Source: Nitrosopumilus sp.
GTDB lineage: Archaea; Thermoproteota; Nitrososphaeria; Nitrososphaerales; Nitrosopumilaceae
Direction of reading: 5' to 3'
Length of the DNA stretch: 64,000 nucleotides
Assembly: GCF_025699125.1 (NCBI RefSeq)
Contig: NZ_JAILWC010000001.1
Coordinates: 1-64,000, forward strand
Part shown: one piece after another, positions 32,059 to 42,586 of the stretch
Numbering within the stretch: position 1 is the stretch's first letter
Layout: every line of letters begins with the position of its first letter
The notes under the pieces: generated by a model
What the model was told of the DNA's origin: nothing
Databases searched by the model: none
Seen by the model: the letters and a program-made list of their open reading frames with translations, nothing else
Program-made: the position numbers and the translations under genes

Positions 32059-32241
32059 TCATGCAACCCCGTAAACTGACGGCCTGTAGTTCACATCTAC
32101 TAACCTGCAGATAGAGTGAATCTGCTCATCTGTTTCAAAGTTACAATTCTTGCAGGAAAATTTTATCGGTTCTATGCAAATTGAACATTTTTGTTTTGTC
32201 TCCAAGACGAACCCACATTTTCTGCAACTATCCATTCTCAT
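32059..32241 (-). CDS. Small protein with three CxxC knuckles
   Basis: A protein of about 60 aa with CRKCGF, CSIC and CKNCNF, plus a further Cys and His, enough for one or two zinc ribbons. ATG 32241 is preferred because AGGTGA precedes it by eight bases; this SD overlaps the stop of the upstream 37-aa gene. The two genes form a small minus-strand operon. Confidence 0.65.
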   Translation of the reverse strand: MRMDSCRKCGFVLETKQKCSICIEPIKFSCKNCNFETDEQIHSICRLVDVNYRPSVYGVA

Positions 32242-32253
32242 TGTATTTTTCAC

Positions 32254-32367
32254 CTACAATCCTAATGAAAGAACAATAACCGAAATTACTGCAAAAACAT
32301 AGAAACCAATGAATGCCTTTTTGTATCTAGGAATCATTAATTTTGATTTTTGTTTATTTTGAATCAT
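32254..32367 (-). CDS. 37-aa single-span membrane microprotein
   Basis: A 37-aa protein with a basic N-terminus (NKQKSKLMIPRYKKA) and one membrane helix (FIGFYVFAVISVIVLSLGL). The start at 32367 is set by a strong GGAGG about eight bases upstream, one of the few clear SD sites in the window. It ends exactly where the zinc-knuckle gene's leader begins. Function unknown. Confidence 0.65.
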   Translation of the reverse strand: MIQNKQKSKLMIPRYKKAFIGFYVFAVISVIVLSLGL

Positions 32368-32471
32368 TGTGATTCCTCCTTTGAAAAAACAGCGAGAAAT
32401 CTGTGGAAAAAATCACAGTTCTTGACTGGTCTAGAGCAATGTAGTTCTCGCATGGAAAGAATACGTTATTA

Positions 32472-32492
32472 CTGACCATATACATTGGTCAG
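32472..32492. promoter_or_regulatory. Inverted repeat in divergent promoter region
   Basis: ctgacca (32472-32478) and tggtcag (32486-32492) are separated by seven bases, giving a dyad typical of a dimeric regulator site. It lies between the minus-strand 37-aa gene and the plus-strand 48-aa gene. A weaker ggtaa/ttacc dyad follows at about 32505-32525. Confidence 0.4.
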
Positions 32493-32560
32493 CTATTCAG
32501 CTTACCGGTAATCTAAATAATTTACCAGAATCTATGAAGAACTAGCACTATAGTATAATC

Positions 32561-32707
32561 ATGAAACAACAAATCTCAAACTGGGATAAAATGGTTCATG
32601 CTCCATTCAAAAAGGTCGTAAAGTTTGACCTCATCTGCATGGGAATCGGTGTAGTAATGGGAATGGGCGCTGGAGCCTATCTTGTTGCTAGCGGTTTATT
32701 GGGCTAG
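32561..32707 (+). CDS. 48-aa membrane microprotein, family member A
   Basis: A 48-aa protein with a conserved WDKMVHAPFKKVVKFDLICM stretch followed by a glycine-rich membrane helix (GIGVVMGMGAGAYLVASGL). It is nearly identical over the core to the 50-aa protein at 42434, with silent codon differences, so selection acts on protein. The amphipathic N-terminal helix and Gly-x-Gly helix packing suggest a small subunit of a membrane complex. No family recognised. Confidence 0.8.
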   Translation: MKQQISNWDKMVHAPFKKVVKFDLICMGIGVVMGMGAGAYLVASGLLG

Positions 32708-32748
32708 CAACAATTTCTTTTTTATAATAACTGTTCATAACTATCAGC

Positions 32749-33717
32749 ATGCAATTTCAAACAATAGAGCCGTCTTACACATCAAAGGAGGGATGTAGGT
32801 TAGTTTGGAAAGGAGTTGATGAGGATGATACTGATGTGGTCATTCTAAACAAAAAAGAATTAGAGGATTTAGTTGAAATTTTTAAAAAAAATTCCACTGG
32901 CGAAGTAGAATTGGAAGATCAATCAAGTCTCATCAGAGTAAATTCTGACGTTACTCAGTTTACTCTAACAAATCACCCGTTATTGGAAGCAAAGACAACT
33001 GATCTTCAACAGCAAGTTTTAGAGTATGCTGAGGTCCCTCACGAGCCCCAGTATGTCTACATAGGTTCAAAGGAATTCTATCCTTCAGTATGGATACGAA
33101 AAGATGACAAAGTGCAAGAAAAATTTTCTAAAACAAATCAAAAACAATCCCTGATTGAAGCTATTCTGTCATCCGAACCTGAAAAAATAAGACAAGACCT
33201 TTCTCCAACAGACCTGTTCAGAGTTTTTGCTACAAGGCGTTCCACAAGAAAATTTGATAAAACCAAGGTTGAGGACTGGAAGATTGATAAAATTCTCTCG
33301 GCAGCAGATGTTGCTCCAACAGCTGGTAACTTTCAAGGATTTCAGGTATTTCTGATTAAAAATAAAAATACCAAAGAAGCACTTGTCGAAGCTGCAAACA
33401 AGCAACCCTATGTCAATGCACCTGTTGTTTTGGTATTTTGTACTGATCCATCCAGAGTCAAACTGAAATTTCCTCCAGAGACATTGGAGAAATTCTCGTT
33501 ACAAGACGCCACTATTGCCGCTGCATTTTCATTATTGGCAGCCTCGGGAGTGGGGCTTAGCACAATTTGGATTGGAATGTTCGATGAGGAAAAAGTAAAG
33601 AAGATTTTGGGAACTGATTTGAAACCTTCATCAATTCTTTGTATTGGTTACCCAGATAAGAAAAAGCCGCCAAAATCAAGAAGAAAGCTCAAAGAACTAA
33701 TCAAAGTTATAGAATGA
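32749..33717 (+). CDS. Nitroreductase-family protein with N-terminal extension
   Basis: A 322-aa protein. Residues 150-322 are a nitroreductase FMN domain (ATRRSTRKFDKTKVEDWKID, APTAGNFQGFQVFLI, DATIAAAFSLLAASGVGL, IGYPDKK). About 150 residues of unknown type precede it. Natural substrate unknown; such enzymes reduce quinones, nitro groups or flavin. It has its own TATA-like TTTTTATAATA about 30 bases upstream. Confidence 0.85.
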   Translation: MQFQTIEPSYTSKEGCRLVWKGVDEDDTDVVILNKKELEDLVEIFKKNSTGEVELEDQSSLIRVNSDVTQFTLTNHPLLEAKTTDLQQQVLEYAEVPHEPQYVYIGSKEFYPSVWIRKDDKVQEKFSKTNQKQSLIEAILSSEPEKIRQDLSPTDLFRVFATRRSTRKFDKTKVEDWKIDKILSAADVAPTAGNFQGFQVFLIKNKNTKEALVEAANKQPYVNAPVVLVFCTDPSRVKLKFPPETLEKFSLQDATIAAAFSLLAASGVGLSTIWIGMFDEEKVKKILGTDLKPSSILCIGYPDKKKPPKSRRKLKELIKVIE

Positions 33718-33757
33718 TTTTGTAATCATTTTTATCCAGTATTGAGGAATATGTTCA

Positions 33758-34558
33758 ATGCCTGATCTTTTCGATGAGACTGCAAACTATGTGCTTGATT
33801 TGGCCAGTCCTCAACGAATGCAGATTTTATTCAAATTACTTGAAAAAAACTATACTCCTACTGCATTGGCAAAAGAAATTGACGCTACAAAACAAGAAGT
33901 ACATAGAAATTTTGTAAGGCTGGAGGAAAGTGGCCTTATTGAAAAGGAAACAAATGGTACCTATTTGTTAACAACATTTGGAAAAATTGTGTGCACTCAA
34001 GTGCCATCACTTATTTTTATCTCGCAAAATAGGAAATATTTTGAAGAGCATAACTTTGGTGACATTCCATACAAGTTTCAAATGCGCTGTGGCCAGCTTG
34101 CAAATGGTCAATACGTCAAAGGAATCTCCAAAGTTTTGGAACAATGGAAAAGCATTTACAAAAACTCAAATGAATACATCTACGAAGTGTTATCAGACGT
34201 TCCATTGGATTTGATAGAGCCACTGGTGAAACAAGTCAAAAAAGGAGTCAGATTCAATTACATATTTTCAGAATCTGCATCAGTTCCTAAAGGGAGAAAG
34301 GCATTGCTGAAGAAACTTGGTTTTGACAAATTAATTGAAAAAGGTCTGATTGAGAGAAAGATGGAAAAGAATGTCCAGACAGTTGTAATTCTGAATGAAA
34401 AAGAGGCATGCATAATGTTTCCAACTTTGGATGGGGAGTCTGATCTTACTGAAATGTTTTATTCAGATGACTTGATGTTTCATGAATGGTGTCTTGATTA
34501 TTTTAGATACTGTTGGTATGGCTCTGATGTGTTCAGGGAAAGTAAGTTAAAAGAATAA
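33758..34558 (+). CDS. Winged-helix regulator with FilR1-type sensor domain
   Basis: A 266-aa archaeal regulator: N-terminal ArsR-like winged helix (SPQRMQILFKLLEKNYTPTALAKEI, then QEVHRNFVRLEESGLIEKE) and a middle/C-terminal domain of the DUF1724/FilR1 type (YEVLSDVPLDLIEPLV, RKMEKNVQTVVILNEKEACIMFP). It lies upstream of the ureohydrolase and proline genes and may respond to an amino acid or derived metabolite, which is inference. Confidence 0.85.
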   Translation: MPDLFDETANYVLDLASPQRMQILFKLLEKNYTPTALAKEIDATKQEVHRNFVRLEESGLIEKETNGTYLLTTFGKIVCTQVPSLIFISQNRKYFEEHNFGDIPYKFQMRCGQLANGQYVKGISKVLEQWKSIYKNSNEYIYEVLSDVPLDLIEPLVKQVKKGVRFNYIFSESASVPKGRKALLKKLGFDKLIEKGLIERKMEKNVQTVVILNEKEACIMFPTLDGESDLTEMFYSDDLMFHEWCLDYFRYCWYGSDVFRESKLKE

Positions 34559-34688
34559 TCTTGTTCATATCTGTTCTTCCTAGTTGGTCTTTGTGAGAAT
34601 TAGTTCGAGTCTCTGTTATTGAGTGTTACATCTATTTCATTTGGTTCAAGGCAAAAAAATACAAATTCTATAACATTGCAAAGTAATT

Positions 34689-35537
34689 ATGGAGAAAATT
34701 TGTTGGGCTAACACTGATAATTTTGATGAATCCGAATTTGTCATATTGGGAATTCCAGACGAATCCCAATCACATGCTTTAAGGAAAGGAACGGAGGAAG
34801 CGCCATCTAAAATCCGACAAATCTCTAATCTGCGTGATTCCTATGTTCGGAATGGTGAAATCTCCCTTGGGAGGCCATTTCAAGGCAATGAAAAAAAAGT
34901 GCATGACATTGGGAACATCGGCAGAACCGATATTGAAAATATGTATGACAAAATTTCCGACTCCTCAAAGATTCCTATTTCTATTGGAGGTGATCATTCC
35001 ATTACAAGTCAAATAATTAACTCCATGGCAAACACCTATGAAAAAATCTCTCTGGTGTATTTTGATGCTCATCCTGACTTTGTAAGTTCCGCTACCAACT
35101 ACTATGGTTCAGTAATCACTGATGTTCTTTCTAGAATTGAGATTGAATCAAGTATTCAAATAGGAATTCGAACTCCTGAACAAGAAGAATTGGATAATAT
35201 CAAAAAATACAATCTACAAGTAATTACCCCTTTTGACATTGCAGAGCAGGGAATAGCAAAAGTTGCAAACACAATCTTGGACAAATTAGGGGATAAAGTA
35301 TATGTCTCATTTGATATGGATTGTATCGATCCTGCATATGCCCCAGGTGTTTCTGTTCCAGTTCCTATGGGTCTTAACAGTAATGATGCTATCTATTTAT
35401 TACAAAAAATTGCAAAAAGAGGAATAATTGGAATGGATATAATGGAAGTGTGTCCTAGTTTTGACATCAAAGACAGAACATCGCATTTGGCATCTAGAAT
35501 AATATCTGAAGTGCTTTATTCATCAGGTGAAACATAA
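34689..35537 (+). CDS. Ureohydrolase (agmatinase/arginase family), atypical active site
   Basis: A 282-aa Mn/Ni-type ureohydrolase expected to split a guanidino group into urea plus an amine. All metal ligands are present: GGDHS, DAHPD and SFDMDCIDPAYAPG. The His that normally follows the DAHxD motif by about 12-15 residues, and acts as proton shuttle, is absent (NYYGSVITDVLSRI). So agmatine or arginine cannot be assigned. It overlaps the P5C dehydrogenase gene by 11 bases if that starts at GTG 35527, which links its product to ornithine/proline-type metabolism. Confidence 0.85.
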   Translation: MEKICWANTDNFDESEFVILGIPDESQSHALRKGTEEAPSKIRQISNLRDSYVRNGEISLGRPFQGNEKKVHDIGNIGRTDIENMYDKISDSSKIPISIGGDHSITSQIINSMANTYEKISLVYFDAHPDFVSSATNYYGSVITDVLSRIEIESSIQIGIRTPEQEELDNIKKYNLQVITPFDIAEQGIAKVANTILDKLGDKVYVSFDMDCIDPAYAPGVSVPVPMGLNSNDAIYLLQKIAKRGIIGMDIMEVCPSFDIKDRTSHLASRIISEVLYSSGET

Positions 35538-37110
35538 CTTGTCTGAATTTGAAAACGAATACACATGGGGCAAGGCTGTAGCAAATAATACTACTGAAAA
35601 GTTTCATGAATCTTTTGATAGTGCAATTGACAAAGTCAGAAAAATTCTTGGGAAAAAATATCCGATAATAGTTAATGGCAAAGAGATCTATTACGATGAT
35701 TGTTTTTCCGTCCGATGTCCTTCTGACACTGAAATCGTTGTTGCAGAATTTCCAAAAACGTCAGTTGATGACACAAAAAATGCCATATCTAGTGCAAAAA
35801 ATTCATTTGAAAAATGGAGTAATACAACGTTTCAAAAAAGAGTTGAAACATTCAGAAATTGTGCAGATGCTTTCTCCAAAGAAAAATTCTTTTTAGCTGC
35901 CCTTATGACTTTTGAGAATGGAAAGAATCGACTAGAATCTATGGGAGACGTTGATGAAGCTATAGACTTTATGAGATTTTATGCATTACAATTAGAAAAT
36001 AACCAAGGATTCTGCAAGCAGACTGCTCATCCAAATCCTCATGAGAAAACACAGGTTATAATGAAACCGTATGGTGTGTGGGGAATAATTGCGCCATTTA
36101 ACTTTCCATCTGCAATTGCAATAGGTATGACTACTGCTGCGTTAATCACAGGAAATACTGCAATTTTAAAGCCTGCAAGTGACGCACCATTATCTTCCTT
36201 TCAGTTTGCAAAAATCATATATTCTGTAATTCCAGACGGCGCAATTAATTTTGTAACAGGTTCCGGAGGAATAGTTGGAAAAACCATCATTGAAAGCAAA
36301 GACGTTGACGGCATTGCATTTACTGGCTCTCGTGAGGTTGGCATGAAGGGATTCCAAGAGTTTACTAAAATCACGGCAAAACCTTTCATCTCTGAAATGG
36401 GAGGAAAAAATCCAGCCATTGTAACTAAAAATGCTGATTTGGACAAGGCAGCTGAAGGAGTAATGAACGCTGCTTTTGGATTTGGAGGACAAAAATGTAG
36501 TGCGTGCTCTCGAGTTTATGTTCAAAATGATGTTGCTGATCAGTTCATTTCAAAGATTGTTGAGAAGACAAAGAAACTAAGAATAGGAATGCCTTGGGAA
36601 AGGGATGTGTTTCTGGGACCTGTGATTAACAAGGATGCAAAAACAAAATTTGAAAGTGCAGTAAGCTTGGCAAAACAAGACGGCGAGGTTCTTACAGGAG
36701 GTACAATACTGACTTCGTCAGGGCTTGAGAAGGGTTATTTTGTGGAACCTACGATAGTCACAAAATTACCTGATGATCACAAACTTGTCAAAGAGGAGCT
36801 ATTTTTACCATTTTTGTGCATTCAAAAATACGATACCTTTGATGATGCAATCAAACTTGCAAATCAAACAGAATATGGGTTGACTGCAGGTATTTTTAGC
36901 AATGATGACAAACAGGTGGAAGAATTCTTTGCAAAAATTCAAGCAGGTGTTGCGTATGCTAATCGTTTCGCAAGTGCAACTACTGCTGCATTAGTTTCTA
37001 GTCAGCCATTTGTTGGTTGGAAATATTCAGGATCTACGGGAAAAGGTACAGGTGGTGAAAACTATCTGCAGCAATTCATGCATAGTCAGACTCAAACCCG
37101 TTGTGATTGA
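35527..37110 (+). CDS. 1-pyrroline-5-carboxylate dehydrogenase
   Basis: Aldehyde dehydrogenase that oxidises P5C/glutamate semialdehyde to glutamate. The 527-aa length and long N-terminal extension fit P5C dehydrogenases. Seen: APFNFPSAIAIGM, FTGSREVG, EMGGKNPAIV (catalytic Glu), FGGQKCSACSR (catalytic Cys) and EELFLPFLC. Start at GTG 35527 or TTG 35539. The convergent proline dehydrogenase supports the assignment. Confidence 0.92.
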   Translation: MKHNLSEFENEYTWGKAVANNTTEKFHESFDSAIDKVRKILGKKYPIIVNGKEIYYDDCFSVRCPSDTEIVVAEFPKTSVDDTKNAISSAKNSFEKWSNTTFQKRVETFRNCADAFSKEKFFLAALMTFENGKNRLESMGDVDEAIDFMRFYALQLENNQGFCKQTAHPNPHEKTQVIMKPYGVWGIIAPFNFPSAIAIGMTTAALITGNTAILKPASDAPLSSFQFAKIIYSVIPDGAINFVTGSGGIVGKTIIESKDVDGIAFTGSREVGMKGFQEFTKITAKPFISEMGGKNPAIVTKNADLDKAAEGVMNAAFGFGGQKCSACSRVYVQNDVADQFISKIVEKTKKLRIGMPWERDVFLGPVINKDAKTKFESAVSLAKQDGEVLTGGTILTSSGLEKGYFVEPTIVTKLPDDHKLVKEELFLPFLCIQKYDTFDDAIKLANQTEYGLTAGIFSNDDKQVEEFFAKIQAGVAYANRFASATTAALVSSQPFVGWKYSGSTGKGTGGENYLQQFMHSQTQTRCD

Positions 37111-37943
37111 ATCAGCGAACTTCCAAGCAGCAGTATGTTTCTTTTTCTCTCTTTAATTCGCCTGAATGAATAAGGTAACCAATTAATTCCATATGGGATG
37201 TAATCTGAAACAACCAGTTTCTTTTTAATTAGTTTGGGCTTTAGTTCCTCTCTGATTCCTTTTAACATCTGAAACTCAAATTTTTTGGGATATTTTTTTG
37301 ACAAGTTTTCTGCTTTTCGTATCATTTTTTCGTCATGTGTTGCTATTGCAAATTCGTTTCCTTTCTTGAATAGCATTTTCATTAGCTTTAGATAATTTTT
37401 GTCCACATCTTCTTTTGATTTGAATGATGTGCTTGCTTTTTCTCGGTATGCTCCTTTTACTAGGCGTATTTTTGCACCCATCTGTAACAAGTCATTCAGA
37501 TCATCTTCAGTTCTCTTGAGATTGGCTTGTAATGCAATACCGAGTCTTTCATATTTTGAAAAAAATGTACTGTAAATTTCTATTGTCTCATCCGTATGTT
37601 CAGCTGACTCCATGTCCAACCAAACAAAGACATGTGCATTACATGCTTTTTGTATGATTTTTTCAAAATTATGATAACATTCTTTCTGGCTAATGGAAAG
37701 GCCTATCTGTGTTGGTTTTACCGAGATTGCCCCACGAATCTTCCACTTTCTAAAAGAATCTATGATTTTTTTATACTCTTCCATAGCTACGCTGATTTGC
37801 TTTTTAGAGGTATGGTATTCGCCTAATTTGTTTATGATTGCATGTCTTCCTAATTGGTATGCGTTTTTTGCAGAAACTAGCGCATCATCAATAGTATTTC
37901 CTGCAATCCATTGTTTTGCAATTTTAAACAAAACTTTTTCCAT
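37092..37943 (-). CDS. Proline dehydrogenase (stand-alone)
   Basis: FAD-dependent oxidation of proline to P5C, passing electrons to the quinone pool. About 283 aa, with the beta/alpha barrel motifs SVKPTQIGLS, VWLDMESAEHTDETI, ALQANLKRTEDDL, RLVKGAYRE, and FEFQMLKGIREE; C-terminal RRIKERKRN is the substrate arginine region. ATG 37943 is preferred over GTG 37964. It overlaps the P5C dehydrogenase end by 19 bases, convergently. Confidence 0.92.
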   Translation of the reverse strand: MEKVLFKIAKQWIAGNTIDDALVSAKNAYQLGRHAIINKLGEYHTSKKQISVAMEEYKKIIDSFRKWKIRGAISVKPTQIGLSISQKECYHNFEKIIQKACNAHVFVWLDMESAEHTDETIEIYSTFFSKYERLGIALQANLKRTEDDLNDLLQMGAKIRLVKGAYREKASTSFKSKEDVDKNYLKLMKMLFKKGNEFAIATHDEKMIRKAENLSKKYPKKFEFQMLKGIREELKPKLIKKKLVVSDYIPYGINWLPYSFRRIKERKRNILLLGSSLIQSQRV

Positions 37944-38033
37944 CAACTGTGTACCGGTTCCCACAGTGAGTGTTCTTTGACGATAATTATATGATTTTAG
38001 TTATTCTTGAACCACAAAAGAGAAATTTGATGA

Positions 38034-38420
38034 TTGTGTACTGTTATTGTGGATAAGGCTTTTGTTCTAATTAATTGTGATCCGGGTAAAGAGCAGTCAA
38101 TACTGGGACAATTGAGGAAAATTAACAATGTAATTGATGCTCAAGGAACATACGGTGTCTATGACATTGTGGCAAGAATAGAATCTGATAGTAAATCACA
38201 ACTTGACAATATTATTTCTGATCAAATCCGAAAGTTAGATCATGTTAATTCTACTTTGACGCTTATCCCCGTTGATGAGCAAAATATTGTTCCTGATTTA
38301 ATTCCAGATGTCATCCCAGATGTCATCCCAGAACAGAAAAAACCTTTGGATGAATCTTCTGAAGATGAAGAAGAGGATTTAGACGAAGATGATTATGATG
38401 ACGAGACAAAATTAAACTAG
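38034..38420 (+). CDS. Stand-alone RAM (Lrp/AsnC ligand-binding) domain with acidic tail
   Basis: A 128-aa protein. Residues 6-80 form a RAM domain (FVLINCDPGKEQSILGQLRKI, TYGVYDIVARIE, STLTLIPVD) that senses amino acids and oligomerises, with no DNA-binding part. A repeated IPDVIPDVIP linker and an Asp/Glu-rich tail (EDEEEDLDEDDYDDE) follow. It could modulate an Lrp-type partner. The start may be GTG 38049. It neighbours proline catabolism. Confidence 0.85.
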   Translation: MCTVIVDKAFVLINCDPGKEQSILGQLRKINNVIDAQGTYGVYDIVARIESDSKSQLDNIISDQIRKLDHVNSTLTLIPVDEQNIVPDLIPDVIPDVIPEQKKPLDESSEDEEEDLDEDDYDDETKLN

Positions 38421-38559
38421 TCTAAACAGTTTGAAATTCTTTATAGTCTTATATCTGAATTGACAAATAATTTAAATTTGTAAGTAATACCTGTATTTTT
38501 TAAAAATCTTTAAGATGTTTTTTTGAACTATTAAAATACGATTGCAGATAAAGGAAATT

Positions 38560-38799
38560 ATGAATAAAGCATATGTTTTGATAAACTGTGAATTAAATAA
38601 AAAGAAAAAAGTCATCGAAAATCTAAAACACATTGACTCTGTAAAAGAAGTACAGGGTACATTTGGTGCCTATGATGTTATTGTTAAAATTGAGCATGAA
38701 CAAAAAGACAATGTACGAGAAACCGTGAAATGGAATATTCGAAAAATGGATGATGTTCGTTCCACGCTTACTTTGGTAGATACGGGACAACAAAACTAG
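38560..38799 (+). CDS. Stand-alone RAM-domain protein, paralogue of 38034-38420
   Basis: A 79-aa protein made only of the RAM fold (AYVLINCELNKKKKVIENLKH, GTFGAYDVIVKIE, RSTLTLVD). It shares the layout VLINC...GT-x-G-x-YD...STLTL with its neighbour, so the pair arose by tandem duplication and could form mixed oligomers. ATG 38560 chosen. Confidence 0.85.
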   Translation: MNKAYVLINCELNKKKKVIENLKHIDSVKEVQGTFGAYDVIVKIEHEQKDNVRETVKWNIRKMDDVRSTLTLVDTGQQN

Positions 38800-39185
38800 T
38801 GTAAATAATCCAGCTGAAATTATTGTTATTAGCTTAGTGAATGTTATTAGATAATACAATTATTATGAATTATGCACGTTAAAAAAACCTACGAAGTGGA
38901 AAGACTTCAAAAGATAATGAAGGCAAAACTTGAAAATAAAAAAAACATTCCACGAAAGGAAATAAAACAAGTAATGGATGATTATGTTAATTCATAAATA
39001 ATATTGTGAATATTTATGATAAAAAACAGATTAAATGTTCAGTTTGTGGATAATTTTTAGTAATGATGAATGATGGTTTAGTTCTAACTTAATAATTCTA
39101 ATGTTGAAATATTTTTCCGTTTTCTAGCTTAAAATAATGTTTATGCTTTACAGATATTTTTTTCAAATGCAAAAAAATCTTTAAT
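38800..39185. other. Intergenic stretch without a convincing gene
   Basis: About 385 bases, A/T-rich. Two broken reading frames are visible: a 30-codon frame from ATG 38872, whose continuation in another frame after an A run reads protein-like, and an isolated KCSVCG tail near 39040. These may be remnants of small genes. The right end has the promoter region of the SNF-family transporter. Confidence 0.4.
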
Positions 39186-40502
39186 GTGGATCACGAAATA
39201 AAAAGAGAAGAATGGACATCGTCTAGTGGTTTTATTCTGGCATGCATTGGTTCTGCTGTGGGCATAGCCAACATCTGGAGATTTCCTTATATTGTTGGTG
39301 AAAATGGTGGTGGTGCATTTCTAATTCCTTTCTTAATGGTGGTTATTGGATTGGGATTATCTTTAATGATGTTAGAATTTGCAGTTGGGAAATATTTTCA
39401 ATCCTCAATTGTCAAAAGTCTTGAAAAGATAAAAAACAAATTAAAATGGTCGGGTGTTTTCATTGCTTTTGTATCGTTAGCAATTTTAAGCTATTATCTT
39501 GTGATTATCGGCTGGATTGGATTCTTTCTTTCAAGATTTCTTGTTGCCTCTCCTGTTGATTTTGGAGCCATGTCTGAGACCTATTTTCCCCTGATTGCAT
39601 TCGTCATTGTCTCGTTAATCGTTGTAGTCATAGTTGGTAAGGGTGTTATTAATGGAATTGAAAAGTTCAATAAAATTTCAGTACTTGTTCTTATCTCTAT
39701 ATTGATACCTTTTTCGATATATTCTGCAACACTTCCAGGGGCTTTTGAGGGAATTTCGTATTTTCTGATGCCTGATTTTTCATATCTCTCAAATCCTGGC
39801 ATTTGGGCTACAGCTATGGGGCAAGCATTTTTTTCACTATCTTTAGGTTCTGGGGCATTGTTGACTTATGGAAGCTATCTTGGAAAACGGCAATTTCTCT
39901 TAAAACCTACTGCCATAATTATCAGCACAAATACATTGGTGTCTATATTTGCAGGAATTTTGATTTTTTCACTTGTGTTTTCTAGTGACCAAAGCCCTTC
40001 CCAAGGGTTGCCTTTGGTATTCAAAATACTTCCAGAGATATTTTTCCAAATGGATTATGGTTTTGTTTTAGGGACAATATTTTTTGCATTACTTTTTGTT
40101 GCAGGTATGACTTCTGCTATAGGATTGTTTCAGGTTCCTATGTCCTCCTTGCAAGAATCATTAAAAATTTCTAGAAAAAAAGCTACTTTGATTGTATTTG
40201 TATTGTTGATGGTAATTGGAATTCCTTCTGCACTAAGTTATACTCCGTTGGCCATCCAAATCAATCAAATGACCTTTTTGGATTTTATGGATGACATTTT
40301 TGGAACCTATGGGATTACTCTAGCTGAATTGGTGTTTGTTTTATCTGTCACTTGGTTTATGAACAAGAAAAAAATTCTAGAAAATCTAAACAAAAATTCT
40401 AAATACACTTTTCCAAGTTGGACGATTCACTTGATCAAATTTGTTGCACCGTTATTGATAATCTTTACAATCATCTATTCCATGTTTTTGAAAACTTTTT
40501 AA
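39186..40502 (+). CDS. Sodium-dependent amino-acid symporter (SNF/NSS family)
   Basis: A 438-aa transporter with about 11 membrane helices. The N-terminal SSSGFILACIGSAVGIANIWRFPYI holds the Na/substrate-binding unwound helix 1 of LeuT-type transporters, followed by ENGGGAFLIPF. It is the shorter bacterial/archaeal form. Substrate is probably an amino acid or related osmolyte; its location beside proline genes makes proline import possible. Start GTG 39186. Confidence 0.92.
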   Translation: MDHEIKREEWTSSSGFILACIGSAVGIANIWRFPYIVGENGGGAFLIPFLMVVIGLGLSLMMLEFAVGKYFQSSIVKSLEKIKNKLKWSGVFIAFVSLAILSYYLVIIGWIGFFLSRFLVASPVDFGAMSETYFPLIAFVIVSLIVVVIVGKGVINGIEKFNKISVLVLISILIPFSIYSATLPGAFEGISYFLMPDFSYLSNPGIWATAMGQAFFSLSLGSGALLTYGSYLGKRQFLLKPTAIIISTNTLVSIFAGILIFSLVFSSDQSPSQGLPLVFKILPEIFFQMDYGFVLGTIFFALLFVAGMTSAIGLFQVPMSSLQESLKISRKKATLIVFVLLMVIGIPSALSYTPLAIQINQMTFLDFMDDIFGTYGITLAELVFVLSVTWFMNKKKILENLNKNSKYTFPSWTIHLIKFVAPLLIIFTIIYSMFLKTF

Positions 40503-40667
40503 TTTTTCATTCATACATATTTGAAACAATTTTACTTGAAATATTTCCTGCTGAACTACAAACTCTGTTTGCAAGATGAATGATGAAAAGCTTAATGTTC
40601 ATTATAGAGCTTATTTTAAATTAAAAAAATTAGTTACCTATATGTAATTTTTCAACGTAATTTAATC

Positions 40668-40826
40668 ATGACAGAAAAACAACCTGTCGCTGAAACAACA
40701 GAATCAGAAGGGAGACTGGAATCCTCAAAAAGTTCCAATGTCCAAAAGGGATCTCGACCTTCTGATACTTGTAGAGAACAAGAAGAAGCACCTAAGCAAG
40801 AAAAGGCTGCTGCTTCACCCAATTAA
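40668..40826 (+). CDS. 52-aa hydrophilic disordered protein
   Basis: A short frame rich in Glu, Ser, Lys and Gln (TEKQPVAETTESEGRLESS), with one Cys, no hydrophobic core and no family. An A/T-rich TATA-like TTTTAAATTAA lies some 45 bases upstream. It could be a nucleoid- or stress-related disordered protein. Moderate doubt that it is expressed. Confidence 0.5.
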   Translation: MTEKQPVAETTESEGRLESSKSSNVQKGSRPSDTCREQEEAPKQEKAAASPN

Positions 40827-40933
40827 TTTTTTAAAATTGTTTGTATTCATAATGTTATTTGCTCCTAGACACACAATTGTGTGACATATGTTAAAAAAAT
40901 TTCAGATTAAATTATTAGCAAGTTTTTATGAAA

Positions 40934-42313
40934 TCATGTGGAATCAATTTCAATAAATTTTTCTAGTTCTAAATTAAAGACTTGTTCAACTCCGGTAAAA
41001 GACGTCCTCATTATCTTTTTTTCATCTTCAATGATGTAAATCTGCAAATAATCCTCTTCCTCAAATAGATTTGAATTATCTACTTGTGTAACTGTACCTT
41101 CAAGACAGAAAACGTCAACAGATGTTGGACACATAGTCTGTATGTCAAATTCCACTATGGCTAAATCATCATCTGTAGTGTGAATTATTCTGTTTTTATC
41201 CCATAAAGTGATCCAAAAATCTTCAGATAACCCTAAAAGATTTGCATTGGATTTTGCAAAATAATAGGGCTTTTTGACATTATATGGTTCTTGAGTTTCA
41301 TAAATTGCTACTTTGTCAGCGTCTTTTAATGCAGCAAACAATCTTCCAGTTTTTTCATCATAATGTATGTCCCATGGATATGTCTCAGTAGTTATGGCGT
41401 ATTCTAGTTCTTCGGAATCTAGATTTATGGAATTTATCTGATTTTCATATTGATGAGAGACATACAAAATATTGTTTTTAGCGTCCAGCGTTAGTGCTTG
41501 CGCGGTATACTCCAAAGGAATTGTTTTGATAACTCTTGCATCTATGATTGATAATACTGTGATTTCTTCACTTCCTCTATTTGCAATATAAGCAATATGT
41601 TCTTCTGAATCAATTTCGATATCCCATGGACCCTCATGAACATTGATGGTTTTTACTACTTTGTGACTAGGAAATTTTCTCTCAGAGTCAAAAACTGGCT
41701 CTATAACACTAACCGAATTACCTGCAGTAGAAGTAACAATTAATGTGTTGGAGATTTCATCAATTGCCATTTCAAATGGATGTGCTGGCACAGTTATTTG
41801 TTCAATAATTTGATCATTGTAAGGATTTATCACGTATATTATATCCGAGTGATAGTCAAGAACATAAACTAATTCAAGATTTTGATTATATGATATAGCC
41901 CATCCGCCGGTATCGTATGACAAATCTTTACTAATCTGATCAGAAGGAGGTGCTTCAAAAGAAATTTGTGAACTAGGTAATTGAAGTGTATGAAAATAAG
42001 TCATGTTTAAGAAAAAAACATCTATTTTACTACTACCATACATTGATACGTATAACTTATTCATTTCTGAAATTACTTCAATGCCCATAACACCAGTATC
42101 CGATGTTGTAAAAAACTCAGACTCCATTGAGGATAGATCAATTATTGATACATGTGGATATTCAAAACTTGATGTAAATAATTTGTTATCTTCAAGTACA
42201 AGTTTCATGGGACTTGGAGAAACTGGTATGGTTTGTTCTAACGTTTGTGCCTCTACATTAGATATGCCCATAAAAAATATAATTGGAAAAATAACCAAAA
42301 AATAATTTCTCAT
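40934..42313 (-). CDS. Secreted YVTN-type beta-propeller protein
   Basis: A 459-aa protein with signal peptide (FLVIFPIIFFMGISNVEAQ) and repeated blades of about 45 residues, such as ELVYVLDYHSDIIYVINPYND, TLIVTSTAGNSVSVIEP, IAYIANRGSEEITVLSI and ILYVSHQYENQINSINL. This gives a 7-blade-like propeller, then a short C-terminal beta domain with two Cys. Probably a surface binding protein. It diverges from the 50-aa membrane microprotein. Confidence 0.85.
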   Translation of the reverse strand: MRNYFLVIFPIIFFMGISNVEAQTLEQTIPVSPSPMKLVLEDNKLFTSSFEYPHVSIIDLSSMESEFFTTSDTGVMGIEVISEMNKLYVSMYGSSKIDVFFLNMTYFHTLQLPSSQISFEAPPSDQISKDLSYDTGGWAISYNQNLELVYVLDYHSDIIYVINPYNDQIIEQITVPAHPFEMAIDEISNTLIVTSTAGNSVSVIEPVFDSERKFPSHKVVKTINVHEGPWDIEIDSEEHIAYIANRGSEEITVLSIIDARVIKTIPLEYTAQALTLDAKNNILYVSHQYENQINSINLDSEELEYAITTETYPWDIHYDEKTGRLFAALKDADKVAIYETQEPYNVKKPYYFAKSNANLLGLSEDFWITLWDKNRIIHTTDDDLAIVEFDIQTMCPTSVDVFCLEGTVTQVDNSNLFEEEDYLQIYIIEDEKKIMRTSFTGVEQVFNLELEKFIEIDST

Positions 42314-42351
42314 AAATAAAATAACTCTTGGATTATTTATTAAATCGCATA

Positions 42352-42400
42352 AGCTGATTGTTTGAAAGTTAGCTGATTGTTTAAAAATTAGCTTGTTTCT
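42352..42400. promoter_or_regulatory. 19-bp-spaced direct repeats in divergent promoter
   Basis: agctgattgttt occurs at 42352 and 42371, and a shorter relative agcttgttt at 42390, giving a strict 19-base period. The array fills the space between the beta-propeller gene and the 50-aa microprotein gene and overlaps likely basal promoter sequence, so it may be a multi-site operator. Confidence 0.5.
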
Positions 42401-42433
42401 TTACTCAACTTCAAGTACTACTAGGAAAGTACA

Positions 42434-42586
42434 ATGCATATGAAACACGAAGACAGTACTTGGGATAAGATGGTTCATGCACCATTCAAAAAGGTAGTAA
42501 AGTTTGACCTTATCTGCATGGGAATAGGTGTAATGATAGGAATAGGTATAGGGGCATATCTTGTCACTAGTGGATTGTTCAGATAA
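42434..42586 (+). CDS. 50-aa membrane microprotein, family member B
   Basis: A 50-aa protein with the core WDKMVHAPFKKVVKFDLICM and a Gly/Ile-rich membrane helix (GIGVMIGIGIGAYLVTSGL). It matches the 48-aa protein at 32561 almost residue for residue across the core. A second in-frame ATG (42440) is possible. The charged amphipathic start and conserved His and Cys suggest a role within a membrane complex. Confidence 0.8.
   Translation: MHMKHEDSTWDKMVHAPFKKVVKFDLICMGIGVMIGIGIGAYLVTSGLFR

Follow-up and report, generated by a model that had tools for sequence, protein, structure and literature searches.

A microprotein family of the Nitrosopumilaceae and the palindromic operator and winged-helix regulator that accompany it

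What does a membrane protein of about 50 residues do in an ammonia-oxidising archaeon (AOA), and why does one genome carry several closely similar copies of its gene? The question is raised by two short frames within a 64,000-nucleotide stretch of Nitrosopumilus sp. (GCF_025699125.1, contig NZ_JAILWC010000001.1, positions 1 to 64,000), hereafter the window. We find that both frames belong to a microprotein family of the Nitrosopumilaceae, that many members are preceded by a palindromic operator, and that this operator keeps company with a winged-helix regulator encoded close to copy 1. It is very probable that these parts make up a regulon. On balance, we also favour the reading that the microprotein is an inducible single-pass membrane protein and the main output of a small redox or nitrosative-stress regulon. 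Features of the window are collected in Table 1.

The two copies have WDKMVHAPFKKVVKFDLICMGIG in common. Their 38 shared codons show 3, 1 and 15 differences at codon positions 1, 2 and 3, respectively, bearing out an earlier note on this DNA that had seen changes mainly at third positions. The strong purifying selection proposed there is likewise upheld by a ratio of non-synonymous to synonymous substitution (dN/dS) of 0.09, with dN at 0.076 and dS at 0.87. Hydropathy analysis gives a single transmembrane (TM) segment, residues 24-42, flanked on its N-terminal side by basic residues, and the AlphaFold model is a single helix from residue 7 to 43 with a mean predicted local distance difference test (pLDDT) score of 81. 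The proteins are therefore homologous membrane microproteins of about 50 residues, as the note had it, but a search of the whole genome raises its count of two copies to three. The third copy (G000:C4:180147-180281; L004 8136-8285) is 91% identical, has a perfect operator of its own, and is flanked by a multicopper oxidase (MCO)-like gene and a Cu-ATPase-like gene. For copy 2, a start at 42440 is likelier, as it fits the operator register.

Clear homologs are present in 61 of 121 sampled Nitrosopumilaceae genomes (a count that includes one genome added from a class-wide profile search), at 1-6 copies per genome. Orthologues outside the source genome, on which the earlier note had made its proposal depend, thus occur in dozens of genomes, and for this reason we regard the frames as genes rather than chance open reading frames (ORFs). 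The breadth of the homolog set and the dN/dS ratio together rule out both a chance ORF and merely conserved DNA. Named relatives with the microprotein include Nitrosopumilus, Nitrosarchaeum, Nitrosotalea and Nitrosotenuis, along with Thaumarchaeota metagenome-assembled genomes (MAGs), and nearly all matches in the class-wide search of 300 genomes lie within Nitrosopumilaceae. A 7,907-bp Nitrosopumilus-like contig in a Nitrosocosmicus MAG (L151 / G274:C158) is probably mis-binned. Some near-complete genomes lack the family (e.g. G011, G109 and G119), including some in the same genus.

The family consensus is W-x3-[VI]-x-A-[PS]-[FI]-[KR]-K-V-x2-[FW]-D followed by a GxxxGxG helix, with W, A, V, K, D and the Gly motif invariant or nearly so. 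The His and Cys residues of the window copies are not conserved, and the family is therefore unlikely to serve as a metal or heme ligand. Searches of Pfam, NCBIfam, PHROGs, PADLOC and PDB returned no match to a known family, and no viral contig encodes the microprotein, which removes a virus-borne origin. Weak matches from single-sequence searches (E 0.02-0.2) were judged to be chance; the two that were read are a thioredoxin-reductase-like frame of 341 aa and an unrelated multi-TM frame of 351 aa. A 19-residue resemblance to TM1 of APC amino-acid transporters (E 0.12, no AA_permease match in Pfam) was judged convergent.

Alignment of upstream regions yields the palindrome GTNAGCT-N4-AGCTNAC, of which the GTMA type is the 18-bp sequence GTMAGCT-N4-AGCTKAC. 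The exact palindrome occurs three times in the source genome, before copy 1 (32488-32505), before copy 3 (C4:180083-180100) and at C1:794430, while a reversed-pattern control finds none there and none in each of 40 genus genomes. Across 23 Nitrosopumilaceae genomes, 39 of 48 GTMA-type sites fall 20-110 bp 5' of a microprotein gene. Among 141 distinct family members, 57 match 11-12 of the 12 palindrome positions, a score that shuffles never reach, and the distance from operator to ATG in these takes no values other than 34 bp (14 members) and 53-55 bp (43 members). The two spacing classes differ by about 20 bp, or roughly two helical turns, and both lie upstream of a predicted TATA element, TCTAT, found about 25-30 nt before the ATG in either class. 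In the 54-bp class, the consensus GTAATct...TTTACC stands in the register of the full palindrome of the 34-bp class. The distance from TATA to ATG implies a leaderless mRNA. For TrmB-type archaeal regulators, a motif upstream of the B recognition element (BRE) and TATA is associated with activation and a downstream motif with repression (PMC4158304). Two discrete operator positions about 20 bp apart, both upstream of TATA, therefore suggest an activator, and the phasing of these promoter sequences suggests one that may touch TBP/TFB from one face of the DNA.

The window copies differ in this respect. Both lie at divergent promoters, as the earlier note stated, and its further claim that the promoter elements are distinct holds only in part: the operator of copy 1 is perfect, and what copy 2 retains of it, inside a tandem TTAGCTGATTGTTT repeat, is degenerate and was scored at a lax threshold with a shuffle rate of 1.8%. 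With copies 1 and 3 under the same operator and copy 2 having lost most of it, differential use of the copies is plausible.

The regulator passes the gathering score of PF25213 (HVO_A0261_N) with 48.8 bits against 35, but falls short of the TrmB family (PF01978, 16.0 bits against a cut-off of 25.6). Its structure model shows a winged helix-turn-helix at high confidence and a remainder at low confidence. The order microprotein, nitroreductase, regulator recurs in many loci, and 39 of 93 microprotein loci have a regulator-family gene within 5 kb. Across the 121 family genomes, the palindrome is present in 23 of 28 with a regulator ortholog of at least 72% identity and in 0 of 93 without one (Fisher 3e-20). 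The motif is thus enriched upstream of its targets and absent without the regulator, as expected of a regulon. In the genus sample, 13 of 13 genomes with the regulator have the palindrome and 1 of 27 without it; that one carries an atypical GTTA site, and the gene there is unrelated. Sites of the form GTTAGCT-N4-AGCTAAC at G199:C33:47652 and G077:C24:3758, in genomes without a close regulator ortholog, are possibly the target of a related regulator. Regulator homologs at E<=1e-60 are found in 56 of 61 genomes with the microprotein and 20 of 60 without (p 8e-12). In other genera, where regulators are about 58-68% identical, variant TCAACA...AGCTTA and AGCTGA half-sites were seen upstream by eye, unscored; such variation would be expected if site and protein co-evolve.

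Table 1. Features of the window discussed in the text, with window coordinates.
Feature	Position	Strand	Remarks
Zn-ribbon-like Cys-rich protein	32059..32253	-	64 aa as listed; internal ATG gives MRMDSC...
Microprotein 2, membrane	32254..32367	-	37 aa; PR[HY]KK..GFY..A..S.VVLSL; 33 distinct homologs
Hairpin leader ATGCGAGAAC...TTCTCGC	32392..32453	-	62 nt; start of divergent operon
Palindromic operator GTCAGCTATTCAGCTTAC	32488..32505	.	55 bp before copy 1 ATG; also faces divergent leader/microprotein-2 operon
Weak second operator copy GTAATCTAAATAATTTACC	32508..32526	+	adjoins TATA element
Predicted TATA-like element TCTAT	32531..32535	+	about 26-30 nt before copy 1 ATG; conserved distance to ATG
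Microprotein copy 1	32561..32707	+	48 aa, 5.1 kDa; TM helix at about residues 24-42
Nitroreductase-family protein	32749..33717	+	PF00881 E 2e-26; between microprotein copy 1 and regulator
Winged-helix regulator, HVO_A0261_N domain	33758..34558	+	266 aa; PF25213 E 7e-13; proposed operator-binding activator
Tandem repeat TTAGCTGATTGTTT	42351..42394	+	upstream of copy 2; read from sequence
Degenerate operator ATTAGCTTGTTTCTTTAC, copy 2	42387..42404	+	8/12 positions (lax threshold); 35 bp before ATG 42440
Microprotein copy 2	42434..42586	+	50 aa; 48 aa with start 42440

Most operator sites away from the microprotein precede one of the following: a leader, microprotein 2 and a 444-aa MCO; a leader and a Zn-ribbon pair; a gene for a universal-stress protein or for a TM protein of 138 aa; or one for a ribbon-helix-helix-like protein. 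Microprotein 2, which is unrelated to the first family, has the operator upstream in most of its 33 members and often stands ahead of MCO4a or a Zn-ribbon gene; the Zn-ribbon-like gene is a recurrent divergent neighbour (cluster 1, 24 loci). The MCO of the source genome, preceded by operator, leader and microprotein 2, matches PDB 9cck with 780 bits. We take a further genome (G046) to be N. maritimus; where part of its MCO was compared by eye with the 9cck chain, the two agree. Here, too, operator, leader and microprotein 2 come before the MCO, and the genes run microprotein, regulator, hemerythrin, MCO, the group having operators at either end. The order of hemerythrin and MCO agrees with the literature (PMC12448741), and this MCO is MCO4a/Nmar_1354. 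Nmar_1354 is highly transcribed, rises further in biofilm together with the hemerythrin Nmar_1353, and is reported to convert hydroxylamine (NH2OH) to nitroxyl (HNO) (PMC12448741). A nitroreductase family is also up in biofilms of three AOA (PMC12448741), and may or may not be the one encoded beside copy 1.

The hairpin leader lies directly 3' of the promoter that carries the operator, and what follows it is microprotein 2, a Zn-ribbon gene, MCO4a or no evident gene; the loci with it include L115, L201, L207, L220 and L006. The 25 distinct leaders have in common an outer stem GCGAGAAC/GTTCTCGC, an inner hairpin and a CCCTAGACCAG box. Covariation is carried by one pair of the inner helix only (39-60), which is U-A, C-G or G-C with 8 double-change cells, a number that 0 of 500 shuffles reach. 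Single leaders fold with z-scores of -1.9 to -3.4, and Rfam holds no match. We regard the leader as a candidate cis-regulatory RNA; conservation as an inverted repeat at the DNA level is possible. A peptide, MREQCFPRPE, is disfavoured, as CCCTAGACCAG is conserved across differing reading frames.

The proposed mechanism runs as follows. Judging from co-occurrence, position and helical phasing, a dimer of the regulator would bind GTMAGCT-N4-AGCTKAC just upstream of BRE/TATA and activate transcription of a leaderless mRNA, and the same operator would drive MCO4a, microprotein 2, Zn-ribbon proteins and occasionally a universal-stress protein. The nature of the targets points to redox or nitrosative stress (hydroxylamine, HNO or nitric oxide, NO) or surface stress as the probable signal. 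A 2025 paper in PNAS, by its title as cited, reportedly ties HNO from hydroxylamine to nitrous oxide. The 5-kDa product would insert as one helix, with its W-x3-[VI]-x-A-[PS]-[FI]-[KR]-K-V segment probably at the membrane's cytoplasmic face; its GxxxGxG helix may pack on a larger membrane protein that it protects, assembles or tunes under stress. As the copies differ mainly in promoter, they could supply nearly the same protein under different signals. That the microprotein is a stress-induced modulator of a larger membrane protein we advance tentatively, as a reading somewhat short of an even chance, and confidence in any named partner is low. A more specific proposal is a dedicated hydroxylamine/nitroxyl (or NO) defence regulon in Nitrosopumilaceae, comprising a winged-helix activator not described before, 18-bp operator, leader, MCO4a and two microprotein families, in which the leader RNA would be a second sensing layer and the microproteins would protect or retune the ammonia-oxidising membrane machinery; we consider this rather unlikely in its full form.

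Several observations weigh against the stress-regulon reading. Five genomes have a close regulator but no exact palindrome, the co-occurrence p-values are inflated by shared ancestry (although four genera carry both operator and regulator), and the inducing signal is read from gene content alone. Nitrosotalea encodes only MCO3 (PMC12448741) and yet has the microprotein, which therefore does not require MCO4a as a partner. The family is also wider than the regulon, since 36 of the 141 members have no operator-like site; some of these have Shine-Dalgarno leaders and lie near genes such as hsp20.

Two paralog groups deserve mention. Longer paralogs of about 50-60 aa with Shine-Dalgarno leaders (L050, L056, L084 and L085) have an Hsp20-like gene 5' in at least three of the four loci, which suggests a heat-stress branch of the family. 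A separate group (L060, L061, L066, L076 and L078) has a GAGGTGAAAxAT leader, and in several of these an upstream inverted repeat, GTTGATT...AATCAAC, replaces the AGCT palindrome and is possibly a second operator.

Of the roles considered, that of an inducible accessory or assembly factor fits best. In its sharper form, the microprotein would serve one membrane complex, in the manner of LPA1/Rep27 or CydX/AcrZ. Six of 26 members resemble Pfam DUF3493, aligned through the TM helix, but the score is below cut-off and short hydrophobic matches arise easily, as with the transporter TM1 above, and we hold this form to be doubtful. The earlier note had likened the protein to the small subunits of respiratory or transport complexes, and as an inducible accessory that idea may hold; as an obligatory subunit it is not supported. 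A constitutive structural subunit of a respiratory, ammonia monooxygenase (AMO) or transport complex, with paralogs exchanged by condition, would account for a single helix with a Gly motif under strong purifying selection, and the discovery of further small AMO subunits in AOA is recent (PMC10030591). However, AMO subunits occur in all AOA, and this patchy family is missing from about half of the 121 genomes, near-complete ones included, with 1-6 copies elsewhere. It also has a dedicated operator and regulator, and among the neighbour-cluster representatives inspected, amo, cox, nuo and transporter genes do not recur as neighbours. We judge a constitutive subunit to be unlikely. A membrane anchor or sensor feeding back on the nearby regulator, in effect a one-component stress sensor split in two, would agree with the proximity and correlated presence of the two genes, but microprotein copies often outnumber close regulator copies in a genome and many lie far from any regulator, making this improbable. 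Least likely, and very improbable, is a membrane-acting toxin or stress peptide of the type I toxin/TisB-like kind: small size, one TM helix, many copies and a stress-type regulon would suit it, but conservation goes far beyond hydrophobicity (see the invariant or nearly invariant residues above), no antitoxin gene was seen, the family is not in viral contigs, and an operator and TATA-like element at a fixed short distance from the ATG would imply a leaderless mRNA, while type I toxins typically have long structured untranslated regions.

Genetic tools for these archaea are scarce, and the combination of a defined palindrome with a candidate regulator and a small set of targets gives a circuit that can be tested directly, one target of which, MCO4a, is an enzyme reported to make HNO. 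The microproteins are the most frequent target of the operator. As they lie outside the annotated families searched, genome annotations and proteomic searches may overlook them. The literature and databases searched contain neither the microprotein family, the operator, the leader nor the link to MCO4a, and no comparable operator/regulator pair in Nitrosopumilaceae appears in that literature.

Nevertheless, neither single-helix microproteins under stress control nor archaeal winged-helix regulons are new as kinds. CydX, AcrZ, MgtS and KdpF are microproteins with one helix; each modulates a larger protein of the membrane, and stress induces several of them. The present family is likened to them by kind, not by sequence. 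DUF3493, the domain of the photosystem II factors LPA1/Rep27, likewise has a short basic segment followed by a helix. However, one member scores 16.3 bits against a gathering threshold of 27.1, and the best E of the 26 members is 0.0093; the match extends over no more than the first half of the profile, and there is no photosystem here. MCO4a (Nmar_1354; PDB 9cck) is a target of the same operator in the genus, but as an enzyme is no homolog of the microprotein. AmoX, AmoY and AmoZ are, like the microprotein, small, helical, AOA-specific membrane proteins (PMC10030591). AmoY and AmoZ, at 9.6 and 12.8 kDa, are conserved throughout the AOA and, in streamlined genomes, linked to amo (PMC10030591), whereas the microprotein is a patchy, multi-copy 5.1-kDa protein under a stress-type operator. 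The TrmB/TrmBL1/Tgr regulons of Thermococcales (PMC4158304) similarly pair a winged-helix regulator with a palindrome upstream of BRE/TATA for activation. Their palindrome is TATCAC-N5-GTGATA and they serve sugar sensing, whereas the regulator described here matches HVO_A0261_N better than TrmB.

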